The notes under the pieces: model-generated
Databases searched by the model: none
What the model saw: the letters and a program-made list of their open reading frames with translations, nothing else
Told to the model about the DNA's origin: nothing
Shown: positions 13,792 to 31,412 of the stretch, in pieces
How the letters are laid out: each line of letters opens with the position of its first letter
Numbering within the stretch: the stretch's first letter is position 1
Translations under genes and position numbers: made by a program
NCBI GenBank assembly: GCA_040882465.1
Contig: JBBEBG010000013.1
Span: 1 to 34,725, forward strand
Origin: Gemmatimonadota bacterium
Lineage (GTDB): Bacteria; Gemmatimonadota; Gemmatimonadetes; Longimicrobiales; Gaopeijiaceae
Reading direction: 5' to 3'
DNA length: 34,725 nt

Positions 13792-13824
13792 CGCGCCGCC
13801 CGCCCTCCGAAGCGACGCGGTCCC

Positions 13825-16386
13825 TCACTTTCCCAGGACTTCGTTGAGGATCCCCGACAGCTCCTCCGGGGAAAACGGCTTTCGAAGGAAGGCCGCCGCA
13901 TCGTAGCGCGCTTCCCGCGACAGCTCCTCTTCCGAAAAGCCCGAGATGAGGATGACGGGGTGCGGGTGGCCCCGTTCCTTGAGCACCCGTACGAGCTCGG
14001 AGCCGCTCATCTCCGGCATGACGACGTCACTGATGATGAGGTCAACCGCGGAGGGATCGGCCTCCACGAGCTCCAGGGCCTCCCGACCGTTTCCCGCGCG
14101 CAAGACGACGTGCCCGGCCCGCTCGAGGACGAGCGTCACGATGCCGCCGACGCCGGGATCATCTTCGACGACCAGAATGCGGGCGCGCTCCGCCGCACCG
14201 CTCCGGAGTCTCGAACCGCGGCCTTCGCTCTCGTCCGCCGCTCCGGCAACCGACGGAAAGATGAGGCGGAAGGTCGAGCCTTTCCCGACTTCGCTCTCGA
14301 CAGCCACGAATCCCCGGCTCTGTTTCATCATTCCGTAAACCATCGAAAGACCCAGCCCCGTCCCCTGTCCCTCCGGCTTCGTCGTAAAAAAGGGTTCGAA
14401 GATCCGATCCAGAATCTCGGGAGGGATCCCCGTGCCCGTGTCTTCGACACTCAGGACGGCGTAACGCCCGGGCGCCATTTCCCATGGCATGGCCGCCGCG
14501 TCTTGCCGCGTGAACTCCCGCGTCTCCACGCGAAAAGTGAGGGATCCCTTCCCGGGGATCGCGTCGCGCGCGTTGATCGAAAGGTTGAGGAGGACCTGCT
14601 GGAGCTGAATCGGATCCACGCGCACGAAGGTCCCAGCCTCCGGGGTCACGAAACGGAGCGCGACTCGGGTCGGGATGAGGGGTCGGAGGAGTCCCTCCAT
14701 GTCGGTGGCCGTTGCCGAGAGGTCCACGATCCGCTCCTGCAGGACCTGGCTGCGGCTGAAGGCGAGGAGCCGGCTGGTCAGGCTTGCCGCGCGCTGGGAG
14801 GCCGAGATGATCTGACCGATGTCCTCCCGGAGCGGGGAATCCACCGGGAGGTCGTCCAAGAGGAGACGGGCGCGGCCCAAAATCACGGTCAGCACGTTGT
14901 TGAAGTCGTGCGCGATTCCGCCCGCGAGTCGCCCCACCGCCTCCATCTTCTGCGCCCCACGGATCCGCCGGTCGAGCTCCCTCCGCTCCGTGGTGTCGGA
15001 AGAGATCCCGATCACCCCCCTGAACCGTCCCTCCTCGTCGAAGATCGGGGAGTCGGTGATTGAGGCGTGGAAGAGCGAGCCATCCTTCCGTCGGACCTCG
15101 AATTCGCCGCTCCAGGACTCGCGGCTCTTGAGAATCTCGAGGATTCGCGCGGCGTCCGGGGCGTTTTCCCCGAAGGGCTTGATCTCGCGGATGGAGCGAC
15201 CGATCACCTCCTCGTTGGCCCATCCATAAAGCTCTTCGGCGGCGGCATTCCAATAGAGGATCCGCCCCCCTTCGTCCGTGGCGATCACCGCCTGGCCGAC
15301 CGCCTCGAGGAGACTCGCCTGGAATCGGATCCGTTCCTGGGCCCCCCGACGCTCTGTGATGTCACGCGCGCCGCCCACCATTCGGACCGGATTACCTTCC
15401 TCGTCCCGCACGACAAATCCACGGTCCAGGAATCGCGCATAGGTTCCGTTCCCGAGCTGGAACCCATACTCGGCCTCCCAGTCGCTACCCCCGCCGTCTA
15501 TCACTTCCTGGATCCCGCGCAACACCCGGTCGCGGTCCTCGGGGTGGATCCTCTCGGACCACGATTCGAGATCGGGGCGCAGATTGGCGATCTCGAGGTC
15601 GGGGGTCGCGTGGATACCGACTCCCCACCAATAAACGCCGGCTTGAAGGTCCCAATCCCAGAGGGCATCGGCGGTCACGCGGGCGATGTTCCGGAATCGC
15701 TCCTCGCTCTCTCGAATCTTGGCTTCGACCAGGTGTCGTTCGGTGATGTCACGGAAAAAGACGGCGATCCCCCCGGTCGTCCGGGAAAGTCGGACGCTTA
15801 GCCAACCCTCGCCCGAAGGGTGGAGGGCCTCGAACGCGGCGGTTTCCCCCTGGTCCATCGTCCTCCGGCAGGCGTCCTCGGCGGGCGTTCCGACGAGGTC
15901 GGGAAAGACCTCCCAAACGACCTTTCCCTCGAGGTCGTGTTTCGAGAGGCCCAGAATCCGCTCCGCCTCGGCGTTCAGGTAATCGAAGCGCCAGGACTTG
16001 TCGAGCATGAAGACGCCGTCCCCGATTCCGTCCATCGTCCGGCGGAACCAGGCCCGGAGCGAAGGGAGATCCGGCTCGCCGGCGAACCCGCCGCTCGCAT
16101 CCTGCGCGACGGACAGGCGCGCACGGGACCCGCCAAAGGTGATCTCCCGAGTCGCGATCTCGCGGGAGTGCATCCGATCCCGCTCGGCGGCTTCGATCTC
16201 AGGAAGGGTAGTCGTGAGGAGGTCGCCCCAGGGGCGTCCCAGGAACTCCTCCGCGGCCCGATTCACGGCGAGGATGCGCCCCGACACGGGGTCATGCACC
16301 CACATCGCCTGAGGGTGGGCCTCGAAGATCTCCCGGAACCCGGGTTCCCCGGGCTCGCGAGAGGAGGATTCGGACGGTCGGGGCAT
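13825..16386 (-). CDS. PAS-rich hybrid histidine kinase with C-terminal receiver
   Basis: The 853-aa protein has no membrane helix. About four PAS domains come first: near 15-110 ([22 protein letters not shown]), 115-230 ([21 protein letters not shown]), 235-350 (PAS_3/PAC type) and 355-480 ([23 protein letters not shown]). HisKA follows, with His493 in [12 protein letters not shown]. The HATPase domain has [19 protein letters not shown] and [11 protein letters not shown]. The C-terminal receiver has phosphoacceptor Asp787 in [12 protein letters not shown]. It should be a cytoplasmic sensor, perhaps of redox, light or ligand through the PAS domains, relaying phosphate His to Asp and on to the neighbouring lone receiver. 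The start is ATG 16386, where the first PAS begins soon after. Confidence 0.93.
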
Positions 16387-16593
16387 GACGAGCGGTTTCA
16401 GGCAGTGGTCCGAACGGTGGCGGCTCGGGAAGGGTGCAAGATGGCCCGCGTAGCGGGGCGGGGCAACGCGGTGGAGCCGAACCGGTCGCCCGACAAATGA
16501 ACTCCGCCGGAGGTCGAGCGTCCTTGTTCGTGCAAGGCGGCCTCGAAGGGCGCAGGGAAACCACCATTCGCAAATTCATGAGAGGGAGGGCGC

Positions 16594-18090
16594 GTGAGAA
16601 CCTCGATTCTGTTGATCGCACTGGCGGCGGCCTTGATCGAGCCGCTGGGGGCGCAGGTGACGGACTCCGCGCCGGGGCGGCGACAAGGGGCGGCCCGGAT
16701 GACCATGGAGTCCGCCGTAGTCGAAGCGTTTGGAGGCGTCGCGCTGGCTGCGGATGCCGGAGTCCTGATCGTGCCCGAAAGTCGCACGAAGGCGACTCGG
16801 CGGGTCATTTCCATTCCCTTCTATCGGCTTCGCTCGACCTCCGACACTCCCGCATCCCCGATTTTTCTCCTCCACGGTGGCCCAGGCGGATCCATGATCG
16901 ACGGGCTACAAGAGGAGGGCACCGTCGAGCACATCCTGTTTTACCGCGGGATCGCGGACGTCGTGATTTTCGACCAGCGGGGTGGGGGGCACGCGCTTCC
17001 CGAGCTGGCCTGCGACGAAACGTCGTTCATCCCGTCTCACGAGCCCGTGAACCTTGCCGCGATCGCCGCGGCCTTCCGGGAGACCTCGGCACGGTGCCGC
17101 GCGGACCTCGTGGCGGAGGGTGTGGATCTCGGCGCCTACAACACGATTGAGAACGCCGCGGATATGGATGCCCTGAGGTCCGCCCTCGGCTACGAGAGGG
17201 TGACGTTGATCGGAGGGAGCTACGGCACCCACCTCGCGCTGACCGTCATGCGCCTCTTCCCCGAAACCGTGGATCGGGTGGTTCTCCATGGCGTGGAAGG
17301 ACTCGATCACACGTGGGACAGCCCGGCCGGCCGCCTCGCGGTCCTGGAGCGCCACGCCGCCGCGGCCGAGGCCTCGGCGGAGATGGGATCCCGCATCCCC
17401 GCCGCCGGCCTCATCGCCGCGTTGAGGGGGGTGATCGAGCGCCTGGACTTGGAACCCGTCCGGGTCCCCGTCCCCGGCGCGCCCGACGGATCCTTCGAGA
17501 CAGTGGGCGGCGACCTGATCCGGTTCCTGGCCGGATACGAGGCGGGACAAAGGAATCGGCCGAACGCCTGGCCCGAGATGATCCTGGCGCTCTCCGAGGG
17601 GGACTATTCGTTTCCAGCGACGGTCGCGAGGGAGATCCGCGAGGAAGGCATCCAACCCGACGATCCTGTCCACTACACGATGGACTGCGCGTCGGGCATC
17701 AGCTCCGCCCGACGGGAGAGGCTCGCCGAGGAGGCTGGCGTGGATCTCCTAGGAGGGGTGAACTGGGAGTATGAGGAAATCTGCCCGGTGTGGGATGCAC
17801 CCGATCTCGGCGACGATTTTCGCTCTCCGCTGGAGTCGGCCATTCCGACGGTGATCGTTCACGGAACCTGGGACTACTCGACGCCGATCGAAAATGCGCG
17901 GGAGGTGGCCGCGACCCTCTCCAACTCCCAACTGGTGGAAGTCGTGACCGGGACCCATGGCGCCCTCTATAACGTCTTCGGACGGTGGCAGCCGATGAAG
18001 AGCTTGCTGGCAGCGTTTCTTCGCGGAGAAGAGGTCCGCTTTCCCGGCGAGGTTCAGCTGGAGGTCCAGTTCACGGCCCCGGAGGGATGA
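16594..18090 (+). CDS. Exported alpha/beta-hydrolase peptidase (proline iminopeptidase / TAP-like)
   Basis: The 498-aa protein starts with a signal peptide (ILLIALAAALIEPLGA before QVTDS). The oxyanion-hole motif is HGGPGGS at 94-100. The nucleophile elbow is GGSYGT with Ser209. The acid is Asp427 in HGTWDYSTP and the base His455 in GTHGALYN, giving a complete Ser-Asp-His triad. HGGPGG and the C-terminal arrangement are typical of proline iminopeptidases and tripeptidyl aminopeptidase-like enzymes, which remove N-terminal residues from peptides. A periplasmic location is inferred. The start is GTG 16594 behind a strong AGGGAGG site. Only 10 bp separate it from the ECF sigma gene, suggesting one transcript. 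Confidence 0.88.
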   Translation: MRTSILLIALAAALIEPLGAQVTDSAPGRRQGAARMTMESAVVEAFGGVALAADAGVLIVPESRTKATRRVISIPFYRLRSTSDTPASPIFLLHGGPGGSMIDGLQEEGTVEHILFYRGIADVVIFDQRGGGHALPELACDETSFIPSHEPVNLAAIAAAFRETSARCRADLVAEGVDLGAYNTIENAADMDALRSALGYERVTLIGGSYGTHLALTVMRLFPETVDRVVLHGVEGLDHTWDSPAGRLAVLERHAAAAEASAEMGSRIPAAGLIAALRGVIERLDLEPVRVPVPGAPDGSFETVGGDLIRFLAGYEAGQRNRPNAWPEMILALSEGDYSFPATVAREIREEGIQPDDPVHYTMDCASGISSARRERLAEEAGVDLLGGVNWEYEEICPVWDAPDLGDDFRSPLESAIPTVIVHGTWDYSTPIENAREVAATLSNSQLVEVVTGTHGALYNVFGRWQPMKSLLAAFLRGEEVRFPGEVQLEVQFTAPEG

Positions 18091-18100
18091 CGGCGAAATC

Positions 18101-18724
18101 GTGGAAAGTTCTTCGGACGCGGATCGCGGGAGTGGGGAGTCGAACAGCGACGTGCGTCAGCACCTCTGGGTGCTCAGAGCGCAACTGGGCGACGTCGGGG
18201 CGTTGACGAATCTCGTCGGTGCGCACCAGGGGCGAGTTCTGCATTACCTCGAGTCCATCGTAGGCTCGCGGGACGACGCCGAGGATGCGCTCCAGGACAT
18301 CTGGGTCACCGTCGTTCGCAAGATCGCAAAGCTCGAGGATCCGAGGGCGTTCCGGGCGTGGCTTTATCGAATCGCCCGAAATCGGGCGCTTTCCGGACTC
18401 CGAAGGAAGAGGCGCGAGGGGGAGCGGTTGGTGGACGAGGCGCATGGAAGCGAGAACACGTCCACCGAAGCCGACGAAAACGAAACGTGGTTAGGGGAAC
18501 TCGACCCGGAAGCTGTGCACGCTGCGATCAAGGACCTTTCCCCGGCCCACCGCGAGGCGATCGTCCTTCGGTACTTCCAGGGCATGGGATACGAGGGAAT
18601 ATCCGAAATCGCCGGTTGCAGCATCGGGACCATTCGATCGCGAATCCATTACGGCAAAGCCGAATTGCGAAAATTACTTATGCATCCTCGTAGTTCCGAG
18701 GCGAACCCGGAGGGACATCAATGA
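18101..18724 (+). CDS. ECF-type RNA polymerase sigma factor
   Basis: The 207-aa protein has sigma region 2 at about 28-98 (LVGAHQGRVLHYLESIVGSRDDAEDALQDIWVTV, then FRAWLYRIARNRAL) and region 4 at about 140-192 (LSPAHREAIVLRYFQGMGYEGISEIAGCSIGTIRSRIHYGKAELRKLL). The two are joined by an acidic linker with no region 3, as in ECF sigma factors. It should direct RNA polymerase to a dedicated promoter set. The start used is GTG 18101. The gene overlaps the next by 4 nt (ATGA), the usual position for an anti-sigma factor. The adjacent exported peptidase is probably in the same unit. Confidence 0.93.
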   Translation: MESSSDADRGSGESNSDVRQHLWVLRAQLGDVGALTNLVGAHQGRVLHYLESIVGSRDDAEDALQDIWVTVVRKIAKLEDPRAFRAWLYRIARNRALSGLRRKRREGERLVDEAHGSENTSTEADENETWLGELDPEAVHAAIKDLSPAHREAIVLRYFQGMGYEGISEIAGCSIGTIRSRIHYGKAELRKLLMHPRSSEANPEGHQ

Positions 18725-19086
18725 ATGAAGAAACGGGCGCCGTATCCGAGGAGACTCGACGACTTCTCGGAGAGATCGTAGCAGACGAGAGAAAGACGGA
18801 GGAGCGAATCCGGAAGGCGTCGCTCGTAGCTTGGGCTGCCGCCTTCGCGGCCGTCCCCCTCTTCGGGCTCGTCATGTATTTCACGAGGAACGTGGGGGGG
18901 AGCTCCGTGGAGGTCGCTCGGGCGCTGCTGGTCGTGGTGACGTTGACGGGCGGGCTGGCCCTCTTTCTAGCCGTCCTGATGACGCTGGCGTGGCTCTTTC
19001 GATCGCGGGCGCCCACGCTCGCCGTGATCGAGCGGCGACTCGCTGTGCTCGAAGAGATCCTACTTTCCCGCGGGGGGCCGCGGTGA
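18721..19086 (+). CDS. Small two-helix membrane protein, candidate anti-sigma partner
   Basis: The 121-aa protein has a cytoplasmic N-terminal segment rich in Glu, Arg and Lys (residues 1-35). Two membrane helices follow, about 37-56 (LVAWAAAFAAVPLFGLVMYF) and about 68-92 (ALLVVVTLTGGLALFLAVLMTLAWL). A short amphipathic tail is predicted to be cytoplasmic (IERRLAVLEEILLS). It has no zinc-binding HxxxCxxC motif, so it is not a standard ZAS anti-sigma factor. The start at 18721 overlaps the sigma-factor stop (ATGA), which implies translational coupling. A role in holding the sigma factor at the membrane is inferred from position only. Confidence 0.72.
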   Translation: MNEETGAVSEETRRLLGEIVADERKTEERIRKASLVAWAAAFAAVPLFGLVMYFTRNVGGSSVEVARALLVVVTLTGGLALFLAVLMTLAWLFRSRAPTLAVIERRLAVLEEILLSRGGPR

Positions 19087-19111
19087 GGCGGGGCTGAGGC
19101 TCGTCAGGCCC

Positions 19112-19378
19112 CTTGCAATCACTCAACTCCCGGCGGCACGACTACACTTCGCTTCGCTCGCGTGAGCCTCCGGGATTACGTCGGGACACTGCCAACCGGT
19201 TGGCCCGGAAGGGTTCGAACCTGCGACCCGCTGATTAGAGGTCACGGGGGGCCGTTGGGAGGCGGTCGGTTCAGGTGGGCTTAGGTCGGTCGCATAAGGG
19301 TTTCCGACGTTTCGCCGGCTCCCCAATTCGGTGGAGATCGAGGGTGTTTGGGGCGGCTGTGAACCGGGAGGCAATCGC
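19112..19378 (-). repeat. tRNA-Asn-derived direct repeat, copy 1 (interrupted 3' half)
   Basis: This 267-bp segment is repeated at 22713-22980 in the same orientation. The first 130 bp or so are nearly identical; the rest is clearly related but diverged. On the minus strand it contains the 3' half of tRNA-Asn from the anticodon loop to the T loop (19215-19237). A 72-nt insert follows (19143-19214), and then the rest of the T arm and acceptor end plus flank (19121-19142). This copy has decayed: CCCGGCGGCACGAC where the intact tRNA gene has CCCGCGGCAGGAC. It lies just after the 3' end of the permease gene. No gene is supported between 19087 and 19434. Confidence 0.85.
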
Positions 19379-19434
19379 CCTTTGGCTTCCGTATGCTCCC
19401 CAGGGCGAGAGCCCCGTCCGGTCCGGGGCACACT

Positions 19435-22215
19435 TCAGTCCGTCCGCAACGCCGACATCGCATCGATTCGTGCGGCGCGCAGTGCAGGGAGGAAACCTCC
19501 GACGAGAGCGGCGGTCGTTACGACCGCTGCGGCACCCAGGAACATCACGGGGTCGGTCGGCTCGACACCAAAGAGCACGGATCGCAGGAGCCCGGTGAGG
19601 GCGGCTGCCGAGACCGTCCCGAGCACGAGGCCGGCGAAGAGGAGCTGGGCGGTCCCGCGGAGCACCATGGCCAGGATTCGCGACGGGTCAGCGCCCAACG
19701 CGACACGAACGCCGAGTTCCTGAGTCCTCTGCCGCATTCCGTGCGCGACGACTCCATACACGCCAATCGTGCCAACAAGAAGCGAGATGCCTCCGCCGAT
19801 CGTGAGGAGGAGAGCAAGAAGCCGATCGCGGGAGGTCGCGAAGCGTACCACGTCAGTCATCGGGCGCACCTTGCCTACACTCACGTCGGGATCAGCCGTA
19901 CCAACGGCATTGCGCACGGACTCGATCAGGGCCGAAGGTGGGAGGGCCGTGCGGATCACGAGCGTAGCGTCTACAGGGAACCACGACGGGTCTACCCTCG
20001 GCTGGATGATCGGAATGTAGACGATCTCCTCCGCGCGCTCGCGCGGGGAGGCGTCCTGAACGTCTTCGACCACGCCGGCCACCGTGTATGGCGGGATGTC
20101 GCGGATCTGCCGTGTGTCGCTGTCGAGCATGTCCGCGATTCGGCCCTCTGGCGTGAGGCGGTTCAACCTGCGTCCGATCGCGCGCTCCCCGGAAAAAAGG
20201 CGTGCGGCGAGTGCGCGACTGATGAGCACTGGCTGCGGAAACTCGGCGGGGTTCGGGAGGGCATCGGACGCGTCCGACTCAACGCCGCTGCCCTCCAGAA
20301 CTTCAATTCCCGCGACTTCGAAGTACCCCGGGGTGAAGAATTGAAAGGTCACCTCCGGGGGAACGATGTCCTGACCGGCTTCCGCCTCAATCTCTCGGAC
20401 GGGGGCACGCTCGTACCCGCTGCCGCCGGCAAGCGGAACGCTCGTGACGGCCGCGACCGCCGTGACTCCAGGAATCGACGACACTCGAGCCATGACCGTC
20501 TCGTATGCCTGTTCGTAGTCCAGGTAGCGCCCGCGCTGAATTCCCATCTCCGCGGTCAGGATACCATCCGGCTCGATTCCGATCTCCACACCGCCTAACC
20601 TCGCGAAGCTCTTGGCCATGAGCCCTGAGCCGACGAGAAGCACAAGGGTAAGCCCGATCTGCACCACCACGAGACCGTTCCGGGTGCGGCGGTCCACTGC
20701 CCCGTGCGTCGATCCGGGTCTCGAAGTGCCCAAGGACCGGGGGGCATGAGGACCCAGCTGTCGTGCGGCCGACAAGGCGGCGATGGCCGCAGCGATGGCC
20801 AAGGACACCGAAACAGCAAAAAGGATGACTTCGCCGCTCATCCGGATCTCCGGAAGGCGAGGCAGCTCGATCGGTACGGACGATCCCAGGCCGCCGATTC
20901 CCCATTGGGCCAGGAGAATTCCCAGACCTCCTCCCACCACCGCAAGCAGCAGACTCTCGGTGAGGAAGAGACGAACGATGGGCAAATGACCCGATCCCAG
21001 GGCGACACGGACGGCGAACTCCCGCCCCCGTTCTTCGGACCTGAGGAGGACCAGGTTGGAGACGTTGGCGGCAGACACGAGCAGGAGCAGCGCCACGCTC
21101 CCAAATACGATCCAGATGGGGGCCTCGGCGCCCGCGATCATCTCTTCCCTGAGAGACTCGACCCTCGATGCGAGTCCGATCTCCTCCATCTGCGCCATGG
21201 CGGCAGCCGGGACCGATTCCGACAAACGCGGAAAGAGAGCCGAGAGCTCGGCCTCCGCGACCGACGGATCGACACCGTCCTGGAGGCGAGCCACCGCGTT
21301 CAGCTCGAAACTCAACCCGAAGTAAACGAACCCTGCCCCGGGCGCATCCAGAATCCAGATCCTTGTATCGGCTCTGGGAAAGTCGACGGCCGCCGGGAGC
21401 ACTCCGATGATCTCCCTAGGCGATCCATTGACCCGGATCACTCGTCCGAGGATGCCGGGATCCCTGCCATACCGGTTCAGCCAGAGCTCGTGGCTGACGA
21501 GGATGGGAACGGTCCAGGAGCTGTCGAAGACTCCGGGGGTCGCGCCGAAGGGCGCCGTGTCTTCCTCGACCCAGAGGCGACCGAGTTCGGGAGTCACGCC
21601 CAGGACCCCAAACAGATTGTGGGACGCGCGCGAGACCCGTACCCGCTCCCCTGGGCCGAAGTCATCGAAGAGGCTTCCGACGCCCTCGACGAAGGTCGCC
21701 ATTCCGTCCAGGGTCCGCGCATTCGAGCTGTAATGGCGGACGAGAGCGCTCGAGAGCCCGGTCTCCAAGAGCCCGAGTCCGGGAGCGACGTGCTTGACTG
21801 CCACGAGTCGATCGGGTTCCGCGAAGGGGAGGGGCGCGAGGACAACGCCGTTCAGCACAGCGAAGACTGCCGTCGCACCGCCAATGCCGAGGCCCAGCGT
21901 CCCGATGGCCGCGAGTGAGTATGCGGGCCGCCGAACCAGCCCCCGAACGGCGAGTCGCGCCTCGCGCACCCACGTCTCCAATCGAGGAAGCCCCCGCGCC
22001 GAAATTCCCTCTTCGCGAAAGCGCTCGACACCGCCAAAAGCGATCCTGGCGCGGCGTCGGGCCTCATCGAACGAAAGCCCTTGCCCGCGCGCTAGATACT
22101 CAGCCTCGAATTCGAGATGAGCCCGCATCTCCTCGTCCATCTCCCGCGACATTTCCCCCTTTCGCAACGTCGACCGGAATCGGCGCAGCACCTCTCGCAC
22201 TCGACGCTTCAGCAT
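19435..22215 (-). CDS. Large MacB/FtsX-type ABC permease (ADOP family)
   Basis: Read from ATG 22215 the protein is 926 aa. It has the features of the acidobacterial duplicated orphan permease (ADOP) group. An N-terminal cytoplasmic helical segment (REMDEEMRAHLEFEAEYLARGQGLSFDEARRRARIAFGG) is followed by a membrane helix and MacB-like periplasmic domain (GIGGATAVFAVLNGVVLAPLPF). Next are three FtsX helices around residues 360-500, a second periplasmic domain and three more helices at the C-terminus (ISLLVGTIGVYGVVAHGMRQRTQELGVRVALGA). No ATPase gene is adjacent, as usual for ADOPs. The open frame continues upstream to 22479, overlapping padR, but family N-termini start at MLKRRVRE. It follows padR by 14 bp, so they form one operon. 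Substrate unknown. Confidence 0.9.
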   Translation of the reverse strand: MLKRRVREVLRRFRSTLRKGEMSREMDEEMRAHLEFEAEYLARGQGLSFDEARRRARIAFGGVERFREEGISARGLPRLETWVREARLAVRGLVRRPAYSLAAIGTLGLGIGGATAVFAVLNGVVLAPLPFAEPDRLVAVKHVAPGLGLLETGLSSALVRHYSSNARTLDGMATFVEGVGSLFDDFGPGERVRVSRASHNLFGVLGVTPELGRLWVEEDTAPFGATPGVFDSSWTVPILVSHELWLNRYGRDPGILGRVIRVNGSPREIIGVLPAAVDFPRADTRIWILDAPGAGFVYFGLSFELNAVARLQDGVDPSVAEAELSALFPRLSESVPAAAMAQMEEIGLASRVESLREEMIAGAEAPIWIVFGSVALLLLVSAANVSNLVLLRSEERGREFAVRVALGSGHLPIVRLFLTESLLLAVVGGGLGILLAQWGIGGLGSSVPIELPRLPEIRMSGEVILFAVSVSLAIAAAIAALSAARQLGPHAPRSLGTSRPGSTHGAVDRRTRNGLVVVQIGLTLVLLVGSGLMAKSFARLGGVEIGIEPDGILTAEMGIQRGRYLDYEQAYETVMARVSSIPGVTAVAAVTSVPLAGGSGYERAPVREIEAEAGQDIVPPEVTFQFFTPGYFEVAGIEVLEGSGVESDASDALPNPAEFPQPVLISRALAARLFSGERAIGRRLNRLTPEGRIADMLDSDTRQIRDIPPYTVAGVVEDVQDASPRERAEEIVYIPIIQPRVDPSWFPVDATLVIRTALPPSALIESVRNAVGTADPDVSVGKVRPMTDVVRFATSRDRLLALLLTIGGGISLLVGTIGVYGVVAHGMRQRTQELGVRVALGADPSRILAMVLRGTAQLLFAGLVLGTVSAAALTGLLRSVLFGVEPTDPVMFLGAAAVVTTAALVGGFLPALRAARIDAMSALRTD

Positions 22216-22229
22216 GGATTGACCCCGGT

Positions 22230-22559
22230 TCAAGGAGCTTGCAGCACCAGTTCGACGGCGGAGGTGAGGCGTCGCCAGGTCGCTTGCTCTGCTCGGAATT
22301 GCCGGCGACCGTCGGACGTGACCTGATAGACTTTCACCTTCCTTCCCCCCGGACTCACGCTCCACTCGCTCGAGATCCATCCTCGCTCCTCCAGCCGGTA
22401 AAGCGCCGGATAGAGGGATCCCTGACCAATGGAGAGAACGTCCTCCGACATTTGTTCGATGCGCTTTCCGATTCCCCAACCATGTAGTGGACCAGCGGCG
22501 AGCGTCTTCAGGATGAGGAGATCGAGCGTTCCCTGGAGGAGATCGGTGCGGTCGCCCAT
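22230..22559 (-). CDS. PadR-family transcriptional regulator
   Basis: Read from ATG 22559, the 109-aa protein begins MGDRTDLLQGTLDLLILKTLAAGPLHGWGIGKRI. This is the PadR winged-helix start found in regulators paired with ADOP permeases. It continues with the wing segment GSLYPALYRLEERGWISSEW and a C-terminal dimerisation helix. PadR proteins are usually repressors of an adjacent transporter operon. The frame runs upstream to 22724, but that part covers the operator and terminator. A GAGGAAGG ribosome site sits just before the ATG. A perfect 13-bp inverted repeat 28 bp upstream is the probable autoregulatory operator. Confidence 0.92.
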   Translation of the reverse strand: MGDRTDLLQGTLDLLILKTLAAGPLHGWGIGKRIEQMSEDVLSIGQGSLYPALYRLEERGWISSEWSVSPGGRKVKVYQVTSDGRRQFRAEQATWRRLTSAVELVLQAP

Positions 22560-22586
22560 GCCTTCCTCGTTGAGGAGTGAGACCTC

Positions 22587-22626
22587 GACGTTCGACAATA
22601 GGATGGCGCGGGAATTGTCGAACGTC
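22587..22626 (-). promoter_or_regulatory. 13-bp perfect inverted repeat, predicted PadR operator
   Basis: GACGTTCGACAAT (22587-22599) and ATTGTCGAACGTC (22614-22626) are exact reverse complements with a 14-nt spacer, placed 28 bp upstream of padR. On the minus strand the arms include TTGACG (22628-22623) and TATTGT (22600-22595), which resemble -35 and -10 boxes, but their 22-nt spacing is too long for a standard promoter. Autoregulation by PadR is inferred from position and symmetry. Confidence 0.65.
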
Positions 22627-22670
22627 AAGGTATGTGTGACTTCTGGTCCCGGAGGATTGAAGAGGGCCTC

Positions 22671-22706
22671 AAAAAAAACGCCCTCCCGGCCGAAGCCAGG
22701 AGGGCG
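22671..22706 (-). terminator. Rho-independent terminator (minus strand)
   Basis: Read on the minus strand, an 8-bp perfect stem (CGCCCTCC with GGAGGGCG, at 22699-22706 and 22679-22686) closes a 12-nt loop and is followed directly by eight T (22678-22671). It ends transcripts coming leftward from the MFS gene through repeat copy 2, and insulates the padR promoter region just downstream. Confidence 0.85.
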
Positions 22707-22712
22707 CATAAC

Positions 22713-22980
22713 CCCTGCAATCACTCAACTCCCGCGGCAGGACTACGCTTCGCTTCGCTCGCGTGAGCCTCCGGAATTACGTCTGGACACTGCCAACCGG
22801 TTGGCCCGGAAGGGTTCGAACCTGCGACCCGCTGATTAACAGTTCACGGAGGGCTCTTTGGGGGCGGTCGGTTGAGGTGGGCGGACGTTGATTCCGTAAG
22901 TGCTTTCGGGGCTTCGCCGGGTCAGCTGTTCGGATGAAATCGGGGCTGTTCGGAGTGGCTGTCAACCGGGCGGCAATCGC
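22713..22980 (-). repeat. tRNA-Asn-derived direct repeat, copy 2 (interrupted 3' half)
   Basis: This is the second copy of the repeat seen at 19112-19378, in the same orientation and better preserved. On the minus strand it reads tRNA-Asn from the anticodon loop to the T loop (22842-22816, 27 nt identical to the intact gene at 30555-30627). A 72-nt insert follows (22815-22744), and then the rest of the T arm, acceptor strand and about 10 nt of flank (22743-22721). The insert includes the palindrome CCAACCGGTTGG. The copy lies between the end of the MFS gene and the terminator at 22671-22706. No gene is supported from 22560 to 22992. Confidence 0.87.
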
Positions 22981-22992
22981 TTCAGCCGGCCC

Positions 22993-24324
22993 TCAGGGGT
23001 GACCCTCCGCTCGTTCCGTTACATGAATTCCCAGCGTGAGCGCCGACGCCACGGCGACGGACAGCACGCCTCCCCAGAGCAGAGCATCGAGGCCCGCCCC
23101 GGAATCTATGACGGCGCCCACCAGGACGGGACTCCCGGCTGTGCTCACGGCAACGAGGGCTGCCATGAGGGATTTGATGGACCCGAGGTGCCGAAGGCCA
23201 TACATCTCGGCCCAGAGGGCGACCCGAGCGTTACCGCTCACGCCCGTCGTCACCCCGATGCAGGCCATGAAGGCGTACGACACCCATACGAAATCCAACG
23301 CCATGAGCAGTCCCATGGCGATGCCTAGCGGGAGCAGACTCAACGAAAAGACCGTTCTCGCGCCGAATCGGTCCAGCGTCTCGCCGCCCGCGAGCGAAAA
23401 CACCACACGAGTGACGGCGAACGCTGTGAACGCGGAGGCCATGACCGCGGCGCTCCATCCCCTGGACGCGCCGATCCCGGTCTGGTAAAGGAAGATCCCG
23501 GTAGCCCAGAAGGGAGGGAGCAGCGCGGCCGGAAGCGCGAACCAGAACCGGGGATCGCGGAGCATCTCGCGGCGCGTCCAGTCGCGGTCGTCGGCCACCG
23601 CTTCGTTACCCTGCTCGGAGAGGGATACCAGGTCTGGGTCCCACACGGCCGCGCCGGAGGGCACGGGTCTCGGCTCCGCGCGTCCTGAAGGAACCGCCAC
23701 ACCGCGATCGGGGCGCTCCTCCAGCTCGGGTTCGCCGGCATTCGCTCGGGAGATCAGGGCCAGGAACAGGGGCGCGAAGAGGAACACAGAAAGTGCGGAG
23801 ACACCCACCCACGTGCCTCGCCACCCGGCAAACGCGATGGCCGCGGTACCCAGGAGCGGCAGGACCGCCTCTCCGATCGAGAACCCGAGACTGGAGATTC
23901 CGAGAGCCCTTCCGCGACTCCCCGATGCGTGCCGCCGGGCCATCTCCGTCAGGGCGGTCAGGGCCGCCAGCCCGGGGCCCGCCAGGCGAAGCCCGAACAG
24001 GCCGACGAAGAGGGCAAGAAGATGATTCCCGCCGGCGAGAAGAAGCCCCGAGCCGGCCATGACGGCCGCGATGACCATCGAGAATCGAGCGAGGCTGGTC
24101 CGGTCCATCCACGCACCCGCCCACGGAAGCACGAGGGCGCTCGACAAGGTGGCGACGGCGTAGAGCAGGCCGAACTCGGCATTGCCCAGGGAATGCGCCG
24201 TCAACAGGTAGGGAACGAAGAGGGAGACGAAGAAGGTCTGTCCAAAACTGGAGAAGAACGTGAGCGAGAGGCCGACGGCCAAGGTGGGAAGCCGACTCCT
24301 CAGAGTGCTCCGTCGCTCAAACAT
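22993..24324 (-). CDS. Major facilitator superfamily transporter
   Basis: The 443-aa protein has about 12 predicted membrane helices in two halves of six, separated by a polar loop at about residues 195-250 (EPELEERPDRGVAVPSGRAEPRP). MFS-like features include the loop 2-3 motif GAWMDRTSLARF, a corresponding second-half motif GGETLDRFGARTVF, and Gly-rich helices. The substrate cannot be predicted from the sequence. Its style resembles organic-acid/MCT-like and CynX-like exporters. The start is ATG 24324. It lies 81 bp after the DksA-like gene on the same strand and is followed by repeat copy 2 and a terminator. Confidence 0.9.
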   Translation of the reverse strand: MFERRSTLRSRLPTLAVGLSLTFFSSFGQTFFVSLFVPYLLTAHSLGNAEFGLLYAVATLSSALVLPWAGAWMDRTSLARFSMVIAAVMAGSGLLLAGGNHLLALFVGLFGLRLAGPGLAALTALTEMARRHASGSRGRALGISSLGFSIGEAVLPLLGTAAIAFAGWRGTWVGVSALSVFLFAPLFLALISRANAGEPELEERPDRGVAVPSGRAEPRPVPSGAAVWDPDLVSLSEQGNEAVADDRDWTRREMLRDPRFWFALPAALLPPFWATGIFLYQTGIGASRGWSAAVMASAFTAFAVTRVVFSLAGGETLDRFGARTVFSLSLLPLGIAMGLLMALDFVWVSYAFMACIGVTTGVSGNARVALWAEMYGLRHLGSIKSLMAALVAVSTAGSPVLVGAVIDSGAGLDALLWGGVLSVAVASALTLGIHVTERAEGHP

Positions 24325-24405
24325 CCGGGCCCCTGAAAAGTGAGGCGCGTGAGAGAGGATGGGGCCCCGACCGGTTCGATGAATCGGCTCCCTGCCGGAA
24401 CCGGT

Positions 24406-24750
24406 TCAAGGCGTGGTGCAGCCCCCGCACTCCTCGGCCTCCAGAACGACGAATAGGCGACCCGGGTCGATGTCGGCGCCGCAGTGCGCGCAGATGCCGT
24501 ATGTTCCGGCGTCCATACGCTTCAGGGCCGACCGGATGGCGCCGAGGCGCGCCTCCTGACGCTCCTGAAGCCCCTGGCTAAGGTGCTGACTCTGAAGTGA
24601 ATCCATCCGCGAGAGCCTCCCCACCGCCTGCTGGTCCAACTCCACGGGGCGCGTCGCTTCCGCGCCGATCGAGAGACTGCGCTCGAGGCGGGCAGCCTCG
24701 GCGGCCAACTCCTCGCGAAGGGCCTTGCTCTGATCGTCCGTGAGGGGCAT
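24406..24750 (-). CDS. Short DksA/TraR-family zinc-finger protein
   Basis: The 114-aa protein has an N-terminal helical region containing PVELDQQAVGRLSRMDSLQ, a hallmark of the short TraR/DksA-like group. A C-terminal C4 zinc finger follows, with Cys87-x2-Cys90 and Cys108-x2-Cys111 separated by 17 residues (CAHCG, then CGGC). Such proteins enter the RNA polymerase secondary channel and alter promoter response, often under stress. The classical DksA coiled-coil-tip DxxDxA motif is not evident, so activity may differ from E. coli DksA. The start is ATG 24750. It lies upstream of the MFS gene on the same strand, and divergent from the chaperonin-like operon. Confidence 0.9.
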   Translation of the reverse strand: MPLTDDQSKALREELAAEAARLERSLSIGAEATRPVELDQQAVGRLSRMDSLQSQHLSQGLQERQEARLGAIRSALKRMDAGTYGICAHCGADIDPGRLFVVLEAEECGGCTTP

Positions 24751-25347
24751 TCGAGTGACTCCGGTGCGACACTCACCGAGAAGCGCTGTCGAGCATGCGG
24801 TCGAGCATCAGGATCGCGGGCGGGCCGCCCGACGAAAGAGTACTAGAGTAACGGATGTGACTTGGCGCACGCACCGGGGATCGTGGACCGAGGGATCCAA
24901 AGCGTGTTACCTTTTTCATTGGCTTCGATGTGTGCGAGCGGCCTCCGTGGACCAGGGGGCCCGGCGGCACGCCGCGATCCATGAAACGCTGCCGCCGCTG
25001 CGACGATCCGCCGCTTGCGGCCGCCGAGGCCACTCGTGCAGCGGGAGCGTGACATGTGCAATCCCCTTCCAGCCGCTTCCCAGTCGGTCCGGGCCACCCG
25101 CCGCGGTTTCCAGACTCCACCCTGACAGCACCGTTCTGAATCCGCGGGTCGCCCCCATGGGTGGCCCGCCGTTCCCGCACGCCTGCGATCGGCAGCGACG
25201 TCTTGCTTTGCGGTCGGGAGCCGTTCGGGGCGCGCCCGCTCCGCGGTCGGCTCCAAGCGCGGCGCATCGGTGCCGAAGGCGTTGCACCTCCCGCAGAGAC
25301 GTGGCCATTCGCACCGGCAAGGTCGTTCCAAGAGGACAGGAAAGGAC
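24751..25347. other. 597-bp region without a supported gene (divergent control region)
   Basis: This gap separates the DksA-like gene (minus strand) from the chaperonin-like operon (plus strand). Long open frames exist on both strands, but their translations are rich in Arg, Pro and Ser, show no domain pattern and look like GC-driven artefacts. It must contain the promoters for both flanking units, yet I could not pick out a convincing -35/-10 pair. A degraded coding sequence here cannot be excluded. Confidence 0.5.
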
Positions 25348-25455
25348 ATGAGGATGAGGCACAACGAGCAAGAATTCGATCCCTTCGTGCGGAGGACTCC
25401 GGCGATGCGGCGCGCAGGGACGCTCCAGCCGCGAAATCCGAAGGTGCGACCGTGA
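25348..25455 (+). CDS. 35-aa small ORF coupled to the GroEL-like gene
   Basis: ATG 25348 follows a purine-rich stretch containing AGAGGA and AAAGGA. It opens a 35-codon frame beginning MRMRHNEQEFDPFVRRTP, with many Arg and Pro. Its stop (TGA 25453-25455) overlaps the GTG start of the GroEL-like gene by 4 nt, the same coupling used by the genes that follow. It could be a small protein, a leader peptide that couples translation, or the stub of a lost gene; the EFDPF segment faintly recalls Hsp20 N-termini, which I cannot confirm. No homologue is recognised. Confidence 0.4.
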   Translation: MRMRHNEQEFDPFVRRTPAMRRAGTLQPRNPKVRP

Positions 25456-27044
25456 TCGCGTCTCGCGCCACCAGCGACGCGCACGAGACGCGGATCGGCC
25501 TTCGGAACGGCGTAAGCCGGGCCGCTCTGGTCGCCGGTGTCACGCTCGGGCCTCGGGGCGGAGTGGGACTCCGTCGGCCTTGGGGCGGCAGCATGGCCCG
25601 GGGGACGGGGCTCGAGGTCGCGGCGCCGGCCGCGCCGGAAGGCCCACTGGAGAGGCTCGGATTTCGCTTCGCTCTCGAAACGGCGCGACAAGTGGAGCGA
25701 AGGACGGGCGACGGAACAGCGACCACCCTGGTCCTTCTGGCGGAGTTGTTCCACGAGGTGGTCCGGTGGATCACCAGTGGCGCCGACCCAATCGAGGTTC
25801 GCGACTCCCTCCGATTCGCGGCGGATGAAGTGGACCGGCGCCTCGCGCGCGGGGCCGAGCCGCTCGACGGCGCCCACGGTATCACAGATCTGGCGACCTC
25901 CGCCTGTGCCGGCGATCGGAGACTGGGGGAGGCGGTCGCGACCGCGGTACGACGTGCCGGCTCTTGCGACGGAGTTCAGGTCGCACGTGCGGACACCCCG
26001 AACGACTACCTGGAGGGGCGCGTCGGCCACCTCTTTGGCGGCATAGCGCCGCACGGCGGCTCAGTGAGCGGTCTCAGCTCAGGGAACTGGACCGTGGAGT
26101 CGCCCATGGTCGTGGTGGCGTCCGGCGACCTCGACCCTGCCGGCGCCCGCCAACTCGTGCGATCCGTGGGCACGGATGTGCAGCCGATTCTGCTGATCGC
26201 GCCGGAACAGAGGCTTTCCGGGATCGACCGGAGCCAGGCTTTCCGGGAGAGGCCTCTCATTCCGCTCACGACCTCGAGAGGGGAAGGCGCCGCCGACCTC
26301 CTGGAGGATCTCGCGACGGTCACGAGTGGCCGACCCCTGCTGTTTCGGGGGGAACGCGGAGGAGGAGGCGCGCCCGCGAATCCCTGGATCCGAGCTGGGG
26401 CCGCGCGCCGCGCTCACCTCACCAAGCGCGGTTTGGTGATCGAACCCAATGCGGCGAGCGGGACCCAGATCGAAGCGAATCGGGCCGCCCTACAGCGCGA
26501 ACTGGAGGATCATGCCGATCCCGATGCGCTTCTGGGGAGACTCTTTCGACTCGCGCCGACCTCCGTCACGGTGCGGCTCGCCGATGCCCCGGAGAGCGAG
26601 TACTCGAGACGTCGGGATCTGGCCGTCCGAGCGCTCCGCGCGGTCCGAGGGGCGTCGGAGGCGGGGGTCCTACCGGGGGGTGGAGCCGCGCTCTTCCATG
26701 CCGCGAGCGAGGCTGGGTCTCCGGAGGGTCAGGGCGGGGTGCTTCGCGCCACCAGGTGCGTCGCCGCGGCCGCAGGGGCGGTGATACGACGACTGGCCGA
26801 GAATGCAGGATTCGATGGGCGGGGCGTCCTCGAAGAGGTGCAGGCGGCGGGCCCTCCCGCCCACGGCTTCGACGTGTCCACGCAACAGGTCCGGGACCTT
26901 CGCGGCGCCGGGGTGCTCGATGCCGCCAACGTGGTTCGCTGGTCGCTGCGCGCCGCGGTGGCGACCGCCGAGCTTCTGCTCCTGACCGAGACCGTGGTGG
27001 GCCGTGGTGCGGACGCGCGTCTCGGGGAAGGATTGGAGTCATGA
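25452..27044 (+). CDS. Divergent GroEL-like chaperonin (Cpn60 family) with altered ATPase residues
   Basis: Read from GTG 25452 the 530-aa product aligns along its length with GroEL. The N-terminal equatorial part is VAGVTLGPRG (GroEL VKVTLGPKG). The nucleotide loop is GDGTATT with Asp87. The apical start is NDYLEGRVGHLF, followed by ESPMVVVA. The later equatorial part has EAGVLPGGGAAL and GVLDAANVVRWSLRAAVATAELLLLTETVV. Two of the three Asp residues needed for ATP hydrolysis in E. coli GroEL appear lost: D52 is Thr52 and D398 is Arg393 by my alignment. GroES is not nearby. Upstream in-frame sequence to 25161 lacks family similarity. Its stop overlaps the prfC remnant start (ATGA). It may be a specialised or non-cycling chaperonin. 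Confidence 0.85.
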   Translation: MIASRATSDAHETRIGLRNGVSRAALVAGVTLGPRGGVGLRRPWGGSMARGTGLEVAAPAAPEGPLERLGFRFALETARQVERRTGDGTATTLVLLAELFHEVVRWITSGADPIEVRDSLRFAADEVDRRLARGAEPLDGAHGITDLATSACAGDRRLGEAVATAVRRAGSCDGVQVARADTPNDYLEGRVGHLFGGIAPHGGSVSGLSSGNWTVESPMVVVASGDLDPAGARQLVRSVGTDVQPILLIAPEQRLSGIDRSQAFRERPLIPLTTSRGEGAADLLEDLATVTSGRPLLFRGERGGGGAPANPWIRAGAARRAHLTKRGLVIEPNAASGTQIEANRAALQRELEDHADPDALLGRLFRLAPTSVTVRLADAPESEYSRRRDLAVRALRAVRGASEAGVLPGGGAALFHAASEAGSPEGQGGVLRATRCVAAAAGAVIRRLAENAGFDGRGVLEEVQAAGPPAHGFDVSTQQVRDLRGAGVLDAANVVRWSLRAAVATAELLLLTETVVGRGADARLGEGLES

Positions 27045-27900
27045 CCGAGGTCCTGTCCGAACGCGCACCTTCGGCGACCCTCACTGAGAAGCTCCTCCTC
27101 TACACGCCGGGGCACCAGGACTTTTTCGAGGACACCTGCCGCGCCTCGCGGCAGCCCACAGCGCGGTCATGCCTCTCGACAACCGGAAGGGCGTGGAGGA
27201 ACAGGCCCGAAAACTCTTTGGCGTATGCCGGAAGAGACGCCTTCCGATCTTCACCTTCGTCAACAAGTGCGACCGCCCCGGCACCGATCCCTTCGGCCTC
27301 CGCGACGACGTGGAGCGCGACCTCGGGATCGAGTGCTTCCCGGCGGTCTGGCCCCTCCGAAGAGGCGACCGGCTCATCGGCGTCTTCGACCGGCTTGACC
27401 GCGGGGCGCTTCAGGTAGGTGACACGATCTCGACCGTGGCCAGGCTCGAGTACCCGGGAGTTCCCCGCTTTTCGCCGGAATACTTCGCGTCGGTGCGCCT
27501 GGGAGACCCGCTGCGGCGGAAGCATCTGGCCCGTGGACTTTGACACCTCGCGGAAGAGGGCACGATCCTGCTCCTCTTCTCGGACTCTCTGTCCGGTCCG
27601 GTCCCGATCGTCGGAGCCGTGGGGCGGCTGCAGTTCGACGTGCTCCTGGACCGACTCGCGCGCGAGTACCGTGTGGCCGCGGAGCTCGAGCCGCTCCCGT
27701 TCCGGGCCGCTCGCTGGGTGACCGGCTCCCGGGAGGAGATCGGTCGGCTCGCGTCGCCCTACGGACCGAGGTTCGTCGAAGACGCCGACGGCGAGGCAAT
27801 GTTCCTCTTCGCGAACGAGTGGGCTTTGGAGCGGGCGGAGCGCGACGCGAAGGAAATCCAGTTTCACGATATTCAACCCACCGCGAGGACGGGAGGATGA
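27041..27900 (+). pseudogene. prfC: Decayed peptide chain release factor 3 gene
   Basis: Fragments match RF3 in order. TLTEKLLLY is followed directly by TPGHQDFFEDTCR, so about 50 residues are missing and the P-loop has gone (APSAT where DAGKT is expected). A frameshift near 27,143 leads into AVMPLDNRKGVEEQARKLF, then PIFTFVNKCDRPGTDP. A large internal deletion follows, joining GVFDRLDRGALQ to VGDTISTVARLEYPGVPRFSPEYF. After LARGL there is an in-frame TGA (27541-27543). The frame then continues as HLAEEGTIL, VGAVGRLQFDVLLDRLAREY and the C-terminal DAKEIQFHDIQP. About half the family length remains. Its ends still overlap the neighbouring genes by 4 nt on each side. GTP hydrolysis is impossible without the P-loop. 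Confidence 0.88.
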
Positions 27901-28457
27901 GGGCCGTCCTCGGCGAGGTGCGGATCTATCTCACGCATGGCGACATCGCCCGCCAGCCCGGCACGGACGTGGTGGTCAACGCGGCCAACGCCGAGCTCCG
28001 GATGGGCGGCGGCGTCGCGGGAGCTCTTCACCAGGCGGCGGGTCCCGCCCTCGAGGCACGATGCCGAAGCCTAGCTCCCATCGCCCCGGGCGAGGCGGTC
28101 ATCACTGAGGCCTTCCGACTTCCCAACCGGTGGGTCGTCCACGCGCTCGGCCCGGTGTACGGGAGGGACGAACCCCCTGAGGAGCTGCTCGCCCGCTGCT
28201 ACGAGAACGCGCTTGCGCTCGCGGAAGGTGTTCAGGCACGCTCGATCGCCTTTCCGGCCATCTCGACGGGAGCCTTCGGTTATCCCATGGACGAGGCGGC
28301 CGAGGTGGCGCTCCAGGCCGTGGCGGACGCGGCCGGACGGCTCGAGTCCATTCGAGAAGTCTTTTTCGTTCTCTACTCGGCGCTCGCGCTCGCCGCACAC
28401 GAGAAGGCCCTGAAATGTCTCATTCGTCGGATGGAGCACGCCCGATGGAGCTGGTGA
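27897..28457 (+). CDS. Macrodomain protein (ADP-ribose binding / deacylating)
   Basis: The 186-aa single-domain protein has the macrodomain signatures: THGDIARQPGTDVVVNAANAELRMGGGVAGALHQAAG (the NAAN and GGGV ADP-ribose-binding loops), then FRLPNRWVVHALGP, and ISTGAFGYPMDEAA forming the second phosphate loop. These proteins bind ADP-ribose and often remove it from proteins or nucleic acids, or hydrolyse O-acetyl-ADP-ribose. The start is ATG 27897, overlapping the prfC remnant stop (ATGA), with GGGAGG directly before it. It overlaps the nicotinate phosphoribosyltransferase gene, linking ADP-ribose turnover with NAD salvage. Exact substrate unknown. Confidence 0.93.
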   Translation: MRAVLGEVRIYLTHGDIARQPGTDVVVNAANAELRMGGGVAGALHQAAGPALEARCRSLAPIAPGEAVITEAFRLPNRWVVHALGPVYGRDEPPEELLARCYENALALAEGVQARSIAFPAISTGAFGYPMDEAAEVALQAVADAAGRLESIREVFFVLYSALALAAHEKALKCLIRRMEHARWSW

Positions 28458-29803
28458 CGCGTGCCGATCTGCCACTGCTCACGGACCAGTACGAGCTCGC
28501 CATGGTCCAGGCGTACTGGAAGGAAGGTATGTTCGGCCGGGCCGTCTTCAGCCTCTTCGTGCGAAGGCTGCCGGAGGGTCGCAACTATCTCCTGGCCTGC
28601 GGGCTGGACGACGCCCTCGGCTATCTGGAGTCCTTTCGCTTCGATGAGGACGCGCTCAGCCATCTCGCCGCATCCGGGCGATATGATGGCGACTTCCTGC
28701 GTTGGCTCGAAGAGTGCCGATTCACCGGGGACGTGTATGCGGTACCGGAAGGCACTCCTGTGTTCGCCGACGAGCCGATTCTCGAAGTGGAGGCGTGGCT
28801 CCCCGAGGGGCAGCTCGTTGAGACGCTCCTCATGAATCAAGTACATCTTCAGACGGTTCTGGCCTCCAAGGCATCCCGAGTCGTGACGGCTGCAGGCGGG
28901 CGCGACATCGTGGACTTCGGGCTTCGGCGGATGCATGGCGTTGACGCGGGGTTGAAAGCCGCCCGGGCGTTTCACGTGGCGGGTGTGAGCGGGACCAGTA
29001 ACGTGCTCGCCGGGCGCATCTACGGGATCCCGGTCGTGGGCACGATGGCGCATAGCTACGTGCAGGCCCACGATGACGAGTTGACTGCGTTTCGCGCGTT
29101 CGCCGCCCTGTATCCGGACACGTACCTTCTCGTGGATACGTACGACTCGATCCAGGGAGTGCGCCACGTCGTGCGCCTTGCGGAGGAGCTGGGCCCGGAT
29201 TTTCGCGTTCAAGGAATCCGGCTCGACTCCGGCGACCTGCGGAGACTCTCGCTCTGGGCCCGGAAGATCCTCGACGAGGCAGGGCTGTCCGACGTCCGGA
29301 TCTTCGCAAGCGGAGGACTCGACGAATACGAGATCGAGCGGCTGCTCCAGGAGGGCGCTCCGATCGACGGCTTCGGCGTGGGAACGAGCATGGGCGTCTC
29401 CGCGGACGCGCCGGCGCTGGACATCGCTTACAAGCTCACGGAGTATGCCGGTCGGGGGCGAATGAAGCTTTCACCGGGGAAGCGAACGTTTCCGGGGCGG
29501 AAGCAGGTCTTCCGGGTCGAGCGAAGAGGCGTCGCAAGGCGGGACGTTCTCGCGCCGACGGGAGTTGCGGAGCCCGGACGACCGCTTCTCGAGAAAGTGA
29601 TGGAGGGTGGCCGGCGACTCCCCGCGGGCCGGAGGACCCTCGAGGACGCCCGCGCGCGGGCCAAAGACGAGATCGCGATGCTTCCGGCCGAGATCCGTGC
29701 GCTCGCACCGGCGTCGCGTCCCTTCCCAGTCGACGTCAGCGCGGACCTCCAGAAGCTGCGCGAGGGCGTGATCGCCGAGGTGCAGGGCGAAGTCGCCGGA
29801 TAG
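28445..29803 (+). CDS. pncB: Nicotinate phosphoribosyltransferase
   Basis: This enzyme joins nicotinate and PRPP, with ATP use, to give nicotinate mononucleotide for NAD salvage. The N-terminus LPLLTDQYELAMVQAYWKEGM is diagnostic. Further family blocks are FSLFVRRLPEGRNYLLACGLDDAL, FGLRRMHGVDAGLKAARAFHVAGVSGTSNVLAG, GTMAHSYVQAHDDELTAFRAFA, QGIRLDSGDL and FASGGLDEYEI. Length (452 aa from ATG 28445) fits the family. ATG 28415 would add ten residues and has a GAAGG ribosome site; I prefer 28445 because homologues begin just before LLTDxYEL. It overlaps the macrodomain gene and is followed nine bases later by the nicotinamidase gene. Confidence 0.95.
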   Translation: MELVTRADLPLLTDQYELAMVQAYWKEGMFGRAVFSLFVRRLPEGRNYLLACGLDDALGYLESFRFDEDALSHLAASGRYDGDFLRWLEECRFTGDVYAVPEGTPVFADEPILEVEAWLPEGQLVETLLMNQVHLQTVLASKASRVVTAAGGRDIVDFGLRRMHGVDAGLKAARAFHVAGVSGTSNVLAGRIYGIPVVGTMAHSYVQAHDDELTAFRAFAALYPDTYLLVDTYDSIQGVRHVVRLAEELGPDFRVQGIRLDSGDLRRLSLWARKILDEAGLSDVRIFASGGLDEYEIERLLQEGAPIDGFGVGTSMGVSADAPALDIAYKLTEYAGRGRMKLSPGKRTFPGRKQVFRVERRGVARRDVLAPTGVAEPGRPLLEKVMEGGRRLPAGRRTLEDARARAKDEIAMLPAEIRALAPASRPFPVDVSADLQKLREGVIAEVQGEVAG

Positions 29804-29812
29804 GAGACGCCC

Positions 29813-30481: not shown

Positions 30482-30554
30482 GTGGCGGGAGCGGGGAGGT
30501 GACCTCTCTCCGTCGGCTCCCGTGTGGCCGTGCCTCCACGGCCTCATCACTCAA

Positions 30555-30627
30555 CTCCCGCGGCAGGACTCGAACCTGCGACCCGCTGATTAACAGTCAG
30601 CTGCTCTACCAACTGAGCTACACGGGA
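30555..30627 (-). tRNA. tRNA-Asn (GTT)
   Basis: On the minus strand a complete 73-nt cloverleaf can be drawn. The acceptor stem is TCCCGTG with CGCGGGA (one G-T pair), followed by discriminator G. The D arm is GCTCAGTTGGTAGAGC. The anticodon stem GCTGA/TCAGC closes the loop CTGTTAA with anticodon GTT. The T arm is GCAGG-TTCGAGT-CCTGC. The CCA end is not encoded. Its 3' end points left, toward two interrupted copies of its own 3' half at 22.7 and 19.1 kb, which suggests use as an integration site. Confidence 0.97.
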
Positions 30628-31292: not shown

Positions 31293-31412
31293 GGGGGGTC
31301 TCCGCAAGTTCGAGAGATTTCTGTACGGCCTATCGGGGACCGGTTTGGCCCCACTGGAAGATCGGAAGACTATTGGGCGATTCCATAGGAACATGTGAAG
31401 TAAGATAAACAT

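Follow-up and report, generated by a model that had tools for sequence, protein, structure and literature searches.

Split tRNA-Asn 3' halves at the ends of probable tandem islands and a family of tRNA-tail units in Gemmatimonadota

INTRODUCTION

What has twice split the 3' half of a tRNA gene at the same point of its T-loop? The question arises from a contig of a Gemmatimonadota bacterium of the family Gaopeijiaceae (GenBank assembly GCA_040882465.1, contig JBBEBG010000013.1, positions 1 to 34,725), in which two direct repeats, R1 and R2, each carry the 3' half of tRNA-Asn interrupted by 72 nt. The whole stretch analyzed, 34,725 nucleotides, is called the window below. A first-pass annotation of the window had proposed that the two repeats descend from one altered copy and had known of no described element with this form. 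Here, we compare the locus with its relatives and with other tRNA genes of the genome, and we relate the insert to a family of short units found behind tRNA genes.

RESULTS

Two tRNA-Asn halves with one interruption

R1 and R2 are 84% identical (BLAST, E 1.3e-76) and lie in the orientation of tRNA-Asn. Both are built in the same order: the outer arm comes first, then the stretch of tRNA-Asn that runs from its anticodon loop into the T-loop, then the 72-nt insert, and finally the tRNA end with 9 nt of its flank. The features of the locus are the following.

30555-30627, minus strand: intact tRNA-Asn(GTT) without insert (ARAGORN), read as the regenerated target gene
13792-30545, no strand: interval of about 16.7 kb that separates tRNA-Asn from the response-regulator gene found next to it in relatives (locus comparison)
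22993-30481, no strand: cargo between tRNA-Asn and R2 (MFS transporter, 114-aa ORF, chaperonin-like protein, RF3-like fragment, macro domain, NAPRT, nicotinamidase); relatives lack these genes next to tRNA-Asn
22711-22981, minus strand: R2, displaced 3' half of tRNA-Asn, preceded by a 5' arm and interrupted in the T-loop by the insert (tRNA and self-comparison)
22844-22981, minus strand: outer (element-side) arm of R2, 73.6% identical to the R1 arm (19242-19378)
22816-22843, minus strand: part A of R2, which covers nt 31-58 of tRNA-Asn from the anticodon loop as far as the T-loop core GGTTCGA, 28/28 identical
22744-22815, minus strand: 72-nt insert of R2, likely a degenerate right half of a tRNA-tail unit, with a GCGAAGC hairpin motif at its end adjoining part B (short-unit and long-unit model matches)
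22720-22744, minus strand: part B of R2, tRNA-Asn nt 58-73 and 9 nt of flank, after the insert, 25/25 identical
22678-22707, minus strand: strong terminator-like hairpin directly behind R2 (sequence)
19435-22625, minus strand: cargo separating R2 from R1, with a PadR-type regulator and an ADOP duplicated permease (NCBIfam TIGR03433, TIGR03434)
19110-19378, minus strand: R1, second displaced tRNA-Asn copy, more degraded than R2 (tRNA and self-comparison)
19143-19214, minus strand: 72-nt insert of R1, 69/72 identical to the R2 insert (long-unit model match)

The first-pass description of the repeats is borne out, from the tRNA half with its flank and the shared T-loop interruption to the palindrome in the insert, which is the 14-bp GCCAACCGGTTGGC, and the intact gene that lacks the insert. 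In R1, tRNA-Asn nt 36-58 are exact and the tRNA end is slightly damaged; the hairpin behind this copy has no T run. The repeat has diverged unevenly, since the identity between the copies is 73.6% in the outer arm and 95.8% in the insert (Fisher P 3e-5). We agree that both copies descend from one altered form, and a simple tandem duplication was rejected because the cargo differs on each side rather than being duplicated and because arm and insert diverged unequally.

A search for further copies, as the first-pass annotation had advised, found no third copy of the repeat in the genome or among 395 genomes of the phylum. The insert occurred nowhere in these 395 genomes outside R1 and R2, and exact pieces of the repeats were absent from the viral contigs and genome collections searched. 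Phage and plasmid records matched the tRNA part only, and a phage or plasmid origin was therefore discarded. The insert was also considered as the 3' end of a foreign tRNA; TTCGAACCCTTCCGGGCCA (at most one mismatch) occurs in no other genome among the 395 and in no tRNA gene examined here. A noncoding RNA gene was dismissed as well, for want of an Rfam match (scan of window positions 18900-23200, rtT included) and of unusual stability. Folding of the minus-strand RNA, which had been suggested as a check, did not point to a stable RNA at either repeat of the window (z +1.06 and -0.30 against shuffled sequences), and the window hairpins folded as DNA were no better than shuffled ones (z +0.59 and -1.28).

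The repeats lie in probable islands at tRNA-Asn

The upstream neighbor of tRNA-Asn, a gene at 30618-31412, is conserved beside tRNA-Asn in relatives. On the other side, four other genera of the family (G021, G032, G187, and G011) have an empty site, where tRNA-Asn is followed by a response-regulator/thioesterase/sfp/x8518 block near dnaN-dnaA, at a distance of 95 nt in G187, 635 nt in G032, and 1.5 kb in G021, and directly at x8518 in G011. Since at most 1.5 kb separates tRNA-Asn from this block in the relatives, where 16.7 kb intervene here, R1 and R2 are best interpreted as pieces of the tRNA that were displaced to the far ends of tandem islands. The sequences compared are draft assemblies. 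Beyond R1, the 16.7 kb continue with an ECF sigma operon, an esterase, and a PAS kinase. Near 13792, where the far end lies, no attachment scar was found.

Islands that target tRNA genes are normally marked by tRNA 3' halves displaced in direct orientation (PMC4383910, PMC9897764), so the statement that no described element has this form was too strong for the tRNA part of the repeats. As in those islands (Islander, PMC4383910; PMC9897764), an intact tRNA stands at one end and a direct 3' half at the far end, in tandem arrays, with cargo that has no core function; the differences are that no integrase is present here and that a unit with a further tRNA tail at its end divides the displaced half within the T-loop. 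Cargo at tRNA genes together with partial tRNA repeats is also typical of tycheposons and islands like them (cited in PMC10872708); these carry a tyrosine recombinase, whereas the islands described here have none. No PF00589 match was found on the window's contig, and the nine tyrosine recombinases of the genome are all on other contigs or outside the islands at tRNA-Asn, tRNA-Arg, and tRNA-Cys. We therefore speak of a locus that works like, or is a remnant of, a tRNA-associated genomic island, not of an intact integrase-bearing one; apart from the integrase that was not found, the islands are of the ordinary kind. Two gene fragments were seen in the window. A short reading frame at 27169-27540 with pieces of a translation GTPase and RF3 is probably a broken gene, and a TonB-dependent receptor at 10785-11150 is truncated, with the plug-side start only, followed by an unrelated frame.

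A family of units behind tRNA genes

In many genera of the family, units of 70-175 nt, here called tail units, follow the genes of Pro, Arg, Val, Cys, Ser, and Met tRNAs. Each is composed of an arm complementary to the 3' end of the tRNA in front of it, GNA-loop mini-hairpins, and a repeat of that tRNA's final ~16 nt; between the tRNA and the tail copy, the arm is followed by a constant core, GGATC-N-[GC-GNA-GC-GNA-GC-GNA-GC]-T. The units stand 17-170 nt behind the tRNA, on the same strand, and form rows of up to three with a period of 70-73 nt. Across genera, they occur behind only some copies of a given tRNA, and the same tRNA has from zero to three. The genome studied here holds seven extra tRNA tails, placed 55-170 nt behind six tRNA genes, a count drawn from the stretches around tRNAs and integrases and from genome-wide pattern and model searches; none was found behind 67 other tRNAs of relatives and other phyla. 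No tail unit is known behind tRNA-Asn itself.

The unit pattern occurred in 13 of 121 genomes of the family (the reversed pattern gave a single match). With a covariance model, units were detected in 23 of 395 genomes of the phylum, all 23 among the 94 of these that belong to the family and none outside it. An intact tRNA lies at most 400 nt upstream on the same strand at 23 of the 30 model loci, and nearly all of these 23 repeat the end of that very tRNA. The pairing of arm and tail is tRNA specific: its energy is -14.0 kcal/mol with the unit's own partner and -8.6 kcal/mol with swapped partners (0/2000 permutations), and arm and tail covary (0.244 versus 0.085 when shuffled, 0/500), with double changes in nine pairs. 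Because the search pattern did not include the arm beyond GGAT/TCC, this pairing is independent evidence.

Three of four single units tested fold strongly as DNA (z -3.2 to -4.8). The C-GNA-G loops are conserved in 26-27 of 31 units at each of three places, and GNA loops closed by C-G are a known class of extra-stable DNA mini-hairpins (PMC4686876). Seven unit loci gave no match in an Rfam scan that included the rtT model. We found no description of such units in the open-access literature searched, and the family seems undescribed so far. Two related genomes have the gene for RNase P RNA immediately in front of tRNA-Arg(CCG) with its tail units (L232 978-1359 and L225 858-1240); from sequence matches, the order in the source genome looks similar.

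One precedent is known to us, the tyrT distal repeats of Escherichia coli (rtT, Rfam RF00391), which are present in the transcript. Like the tail units, they are tandem repeats behind a tRNA gene that carry the last nucleotides of that tRNA. They measure 178 bp and are known from one tRNA gene only, whereas the tail units occur at many tRNA species, measure 70-175 nt, and have a tRNA-matched pairing arm and GNA mini-hairpins. Folded single-strand hairpins are also recombination or transposition substrates in integron attC sites and REP elements; the tail units differ from these in that no integron integrase or REP transposase was seen and in that each arm fits the tRNA beside it.

A shared split point in displaced Arg and Cys halves

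A search for tRNA 3' halves in the stretches of this genome around tRNAs and integrases revealed intact displaced halves for Gly-CCC, Lys-TTT, Met-CAT, and a second tRNA-Asn. Two others are split at the T-loop: an Arg(CCG) half into nt 28-59 and 59-74 with 83 nt between (L203 4019-3889), and a Cys half into nt 30-56 and 56-72 with 69 nt between (L213 4043-3931). Both are exact fusions at GGTTCGA of a tRNA half to the right part of a long unit. In relatives, G250 (Val) and G143 (Pro) have displaced halves with a tail attached. A mobilizing enzyme was sought in the Arg and Cys islands; they hold TOTE primase-helicase, PIN, Fic, and HTH proteins and no recombinase.

Some further loci deserve mention. 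A 4-kb block (L203 4328-7842, contig C16), from tRNA-Arg(CCG) to its displaced split half, encodes a PIN and an HTH protein as well as a primase-helicase of the TOTE conflict system (PF22548). The second tRNA-Asn gene (contig C40; L202 3346-3390 and 7897-7924) has tandem displaced halves too, with nearly identical outer arms, one of which halves stops at the T-loop beside an assembly gap. A tRNA-Gln(TTG) gene and a second, partial copy (L045 and L046; contigs C25 and C30), both at contig ends, suggest another repeat-bounded island.

Long units and the window inserts

In some genomes, the units are 150-175 nt long and have a decoy T-loop core, GAACC-GNA-GGTTCGA-GCCGAGCGG, upstream of the hairpin. 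The long units of G018 start with GGTTCGACCCTTGCGGCCC, close to the GGTTCGAACCCTTCCGGGCC of the window. Stretch L272 of G018 has four of them, three in a row with a period of ~165 nt behind the end of tRNA-Arg(CCG), and each unit of the row also repeats the terminator-like hairpin of the tRNA.

A model built from 13 long units, with the window left out, ranked R2 first (20.9 bits, E 0.0012) and R1 second (17.4 bits, E 0.0071) in the window, where the intact tRNA-Asn scored 12.4; over 541 kb, the window inserts had E values of 0.018 and 0.11 and were not cleanly apart from noise. A further match of this model, at L221 7774-7867, looked like coding sequence and was rejected as a unit. The short-unit model matched weakly, and only the R2 copy (17.1 bits, E 0.041). 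In the R2 alignment, whose scores are weak, a GNA mini-hairpin lies next to a tRNA 3' end copy beginning at nt 58-60, and of the arm complementary to the tRNA's own tail, R1 and R2 have only a short, imperfect version. We consider the window inserts likely, rather than proved, members of the tail-unit family. Given this resemblance and the like splits of the Arg and Cys halves, the insert does not stand alone.

DISCUSSION

Our best explanation, to which we assign a probability of about 0.6, is that tandem islands entering at tRNA-Asn displaced its 3' halves to their far ends as R1 and R2, that the insert is the worn right half of a tail unit, and that the units are T-loop recombination sites. 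The T-loop is among the three subsites at which crossover is established for integration into tRNA genes (PMC4383910), and because the fusion lies at one core at Arg, Cys, and probably Asn, site-specific joining at that core is suggested. Islands would enter at tRNA-Asn and leave R1 and R2 at their far ends as displaced 3' halves. A recombinase crossing over at the T-loop core would join the island-borne tRNA 3' half to the decoy core of a tail unit; the product at the far end would be [tRNA half up to GGTTCGA]-[right half of unit]-[tRNA tail], and the tRNA gene would stay whole. The tail units would thus be attachment sites that take the crossover and spare the tRNA. We infer this role of the units, as well as the type of recombinase and a contribution of single-stranded DNA hairpins. 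A wider proposal, which we make tentatively and at less than even odds, is that the family may keep its tRNA-matched hairpin tails as landing pads, that is, decoy T-loop attachment sites folded as single-stranded DNA via the GNA mini-hairpins, at which elements would recombine without breaking the tRNA; R1 and R2 would then be the scars of two landings.

The main rival is a role of the tails as RNA. Cotranscribed with the tRNA, the units could form minihelices resembling the acceptor/T-stem and so direct how the tRNA transcript is terminated, degraded, or processed at its 3' end. R1 and R2 would then be pseudogene pieces of the tRNA that had retained one element of this kind when islands pushed them away. 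Such a role is compatible with the pairing data, the arm being paired and covarying with a tRNA-specific tail, and it would suit the close, same-strand position behind the tRNA, the strong terminator after R2, and the tyrT transcript of E. coli with its tRNA-end repeats. We nevertheless regard it as doubtful, given that the RNA of the window repeats folds no better than shuffled sequence, that the units match no Rfam family and stand behind only some copies of a given tRNA, and that their conserved loops belong to a class extremely stable in DNA.

Each unit could also be a miniature mobile element moved in trans, a hairpin whose insertion at the T-loop duplicates a long target and thereby leaves the tRNA intact, the islands being bystanders. 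In favor of this, many different tRNAs have a constant hairpin linked to duplicated sequence of their own, in zero to three copies at the same tRNA. A preformed element would, however, not bring an arm adapted to each tRNA, no mobilizing enzyme was identified, and the exact fusion of displaced halves at the decoy core ties the units to islands, so that this origin appears unlikely. We judge it similarly improbable that one displaced tRNA-Asn half gained a random 72-nt insertion, was copied by homologous recombination with a neighboring island, and resembles the tail units by chance. The weak matches to the unit models and the absence of the insert from the phylum genomes and from the phage, plasmid, viral, and genome collections would fit such a history; against it stand the displaced Arg and Cys halves, with the same split position and inserts of similar length, the first and second ranks of the two window copies under a model built without them, and the better conservation of the insert than of the flanking arm.

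Under the preferred reading, in which the units take part in island entry, a further class of attachment site would follow, and island finders may miss such sites owing to their divided tRNA fragment. Bacterial islands dock at tRNA genes more often than anywhere else, and the means by which hosts and elements keep the tRNA working have long been in question. Tail hairpins that are tRNA specific and covarying throughout a family, and that also lie where displaced halves are broken, would open this question to tests.
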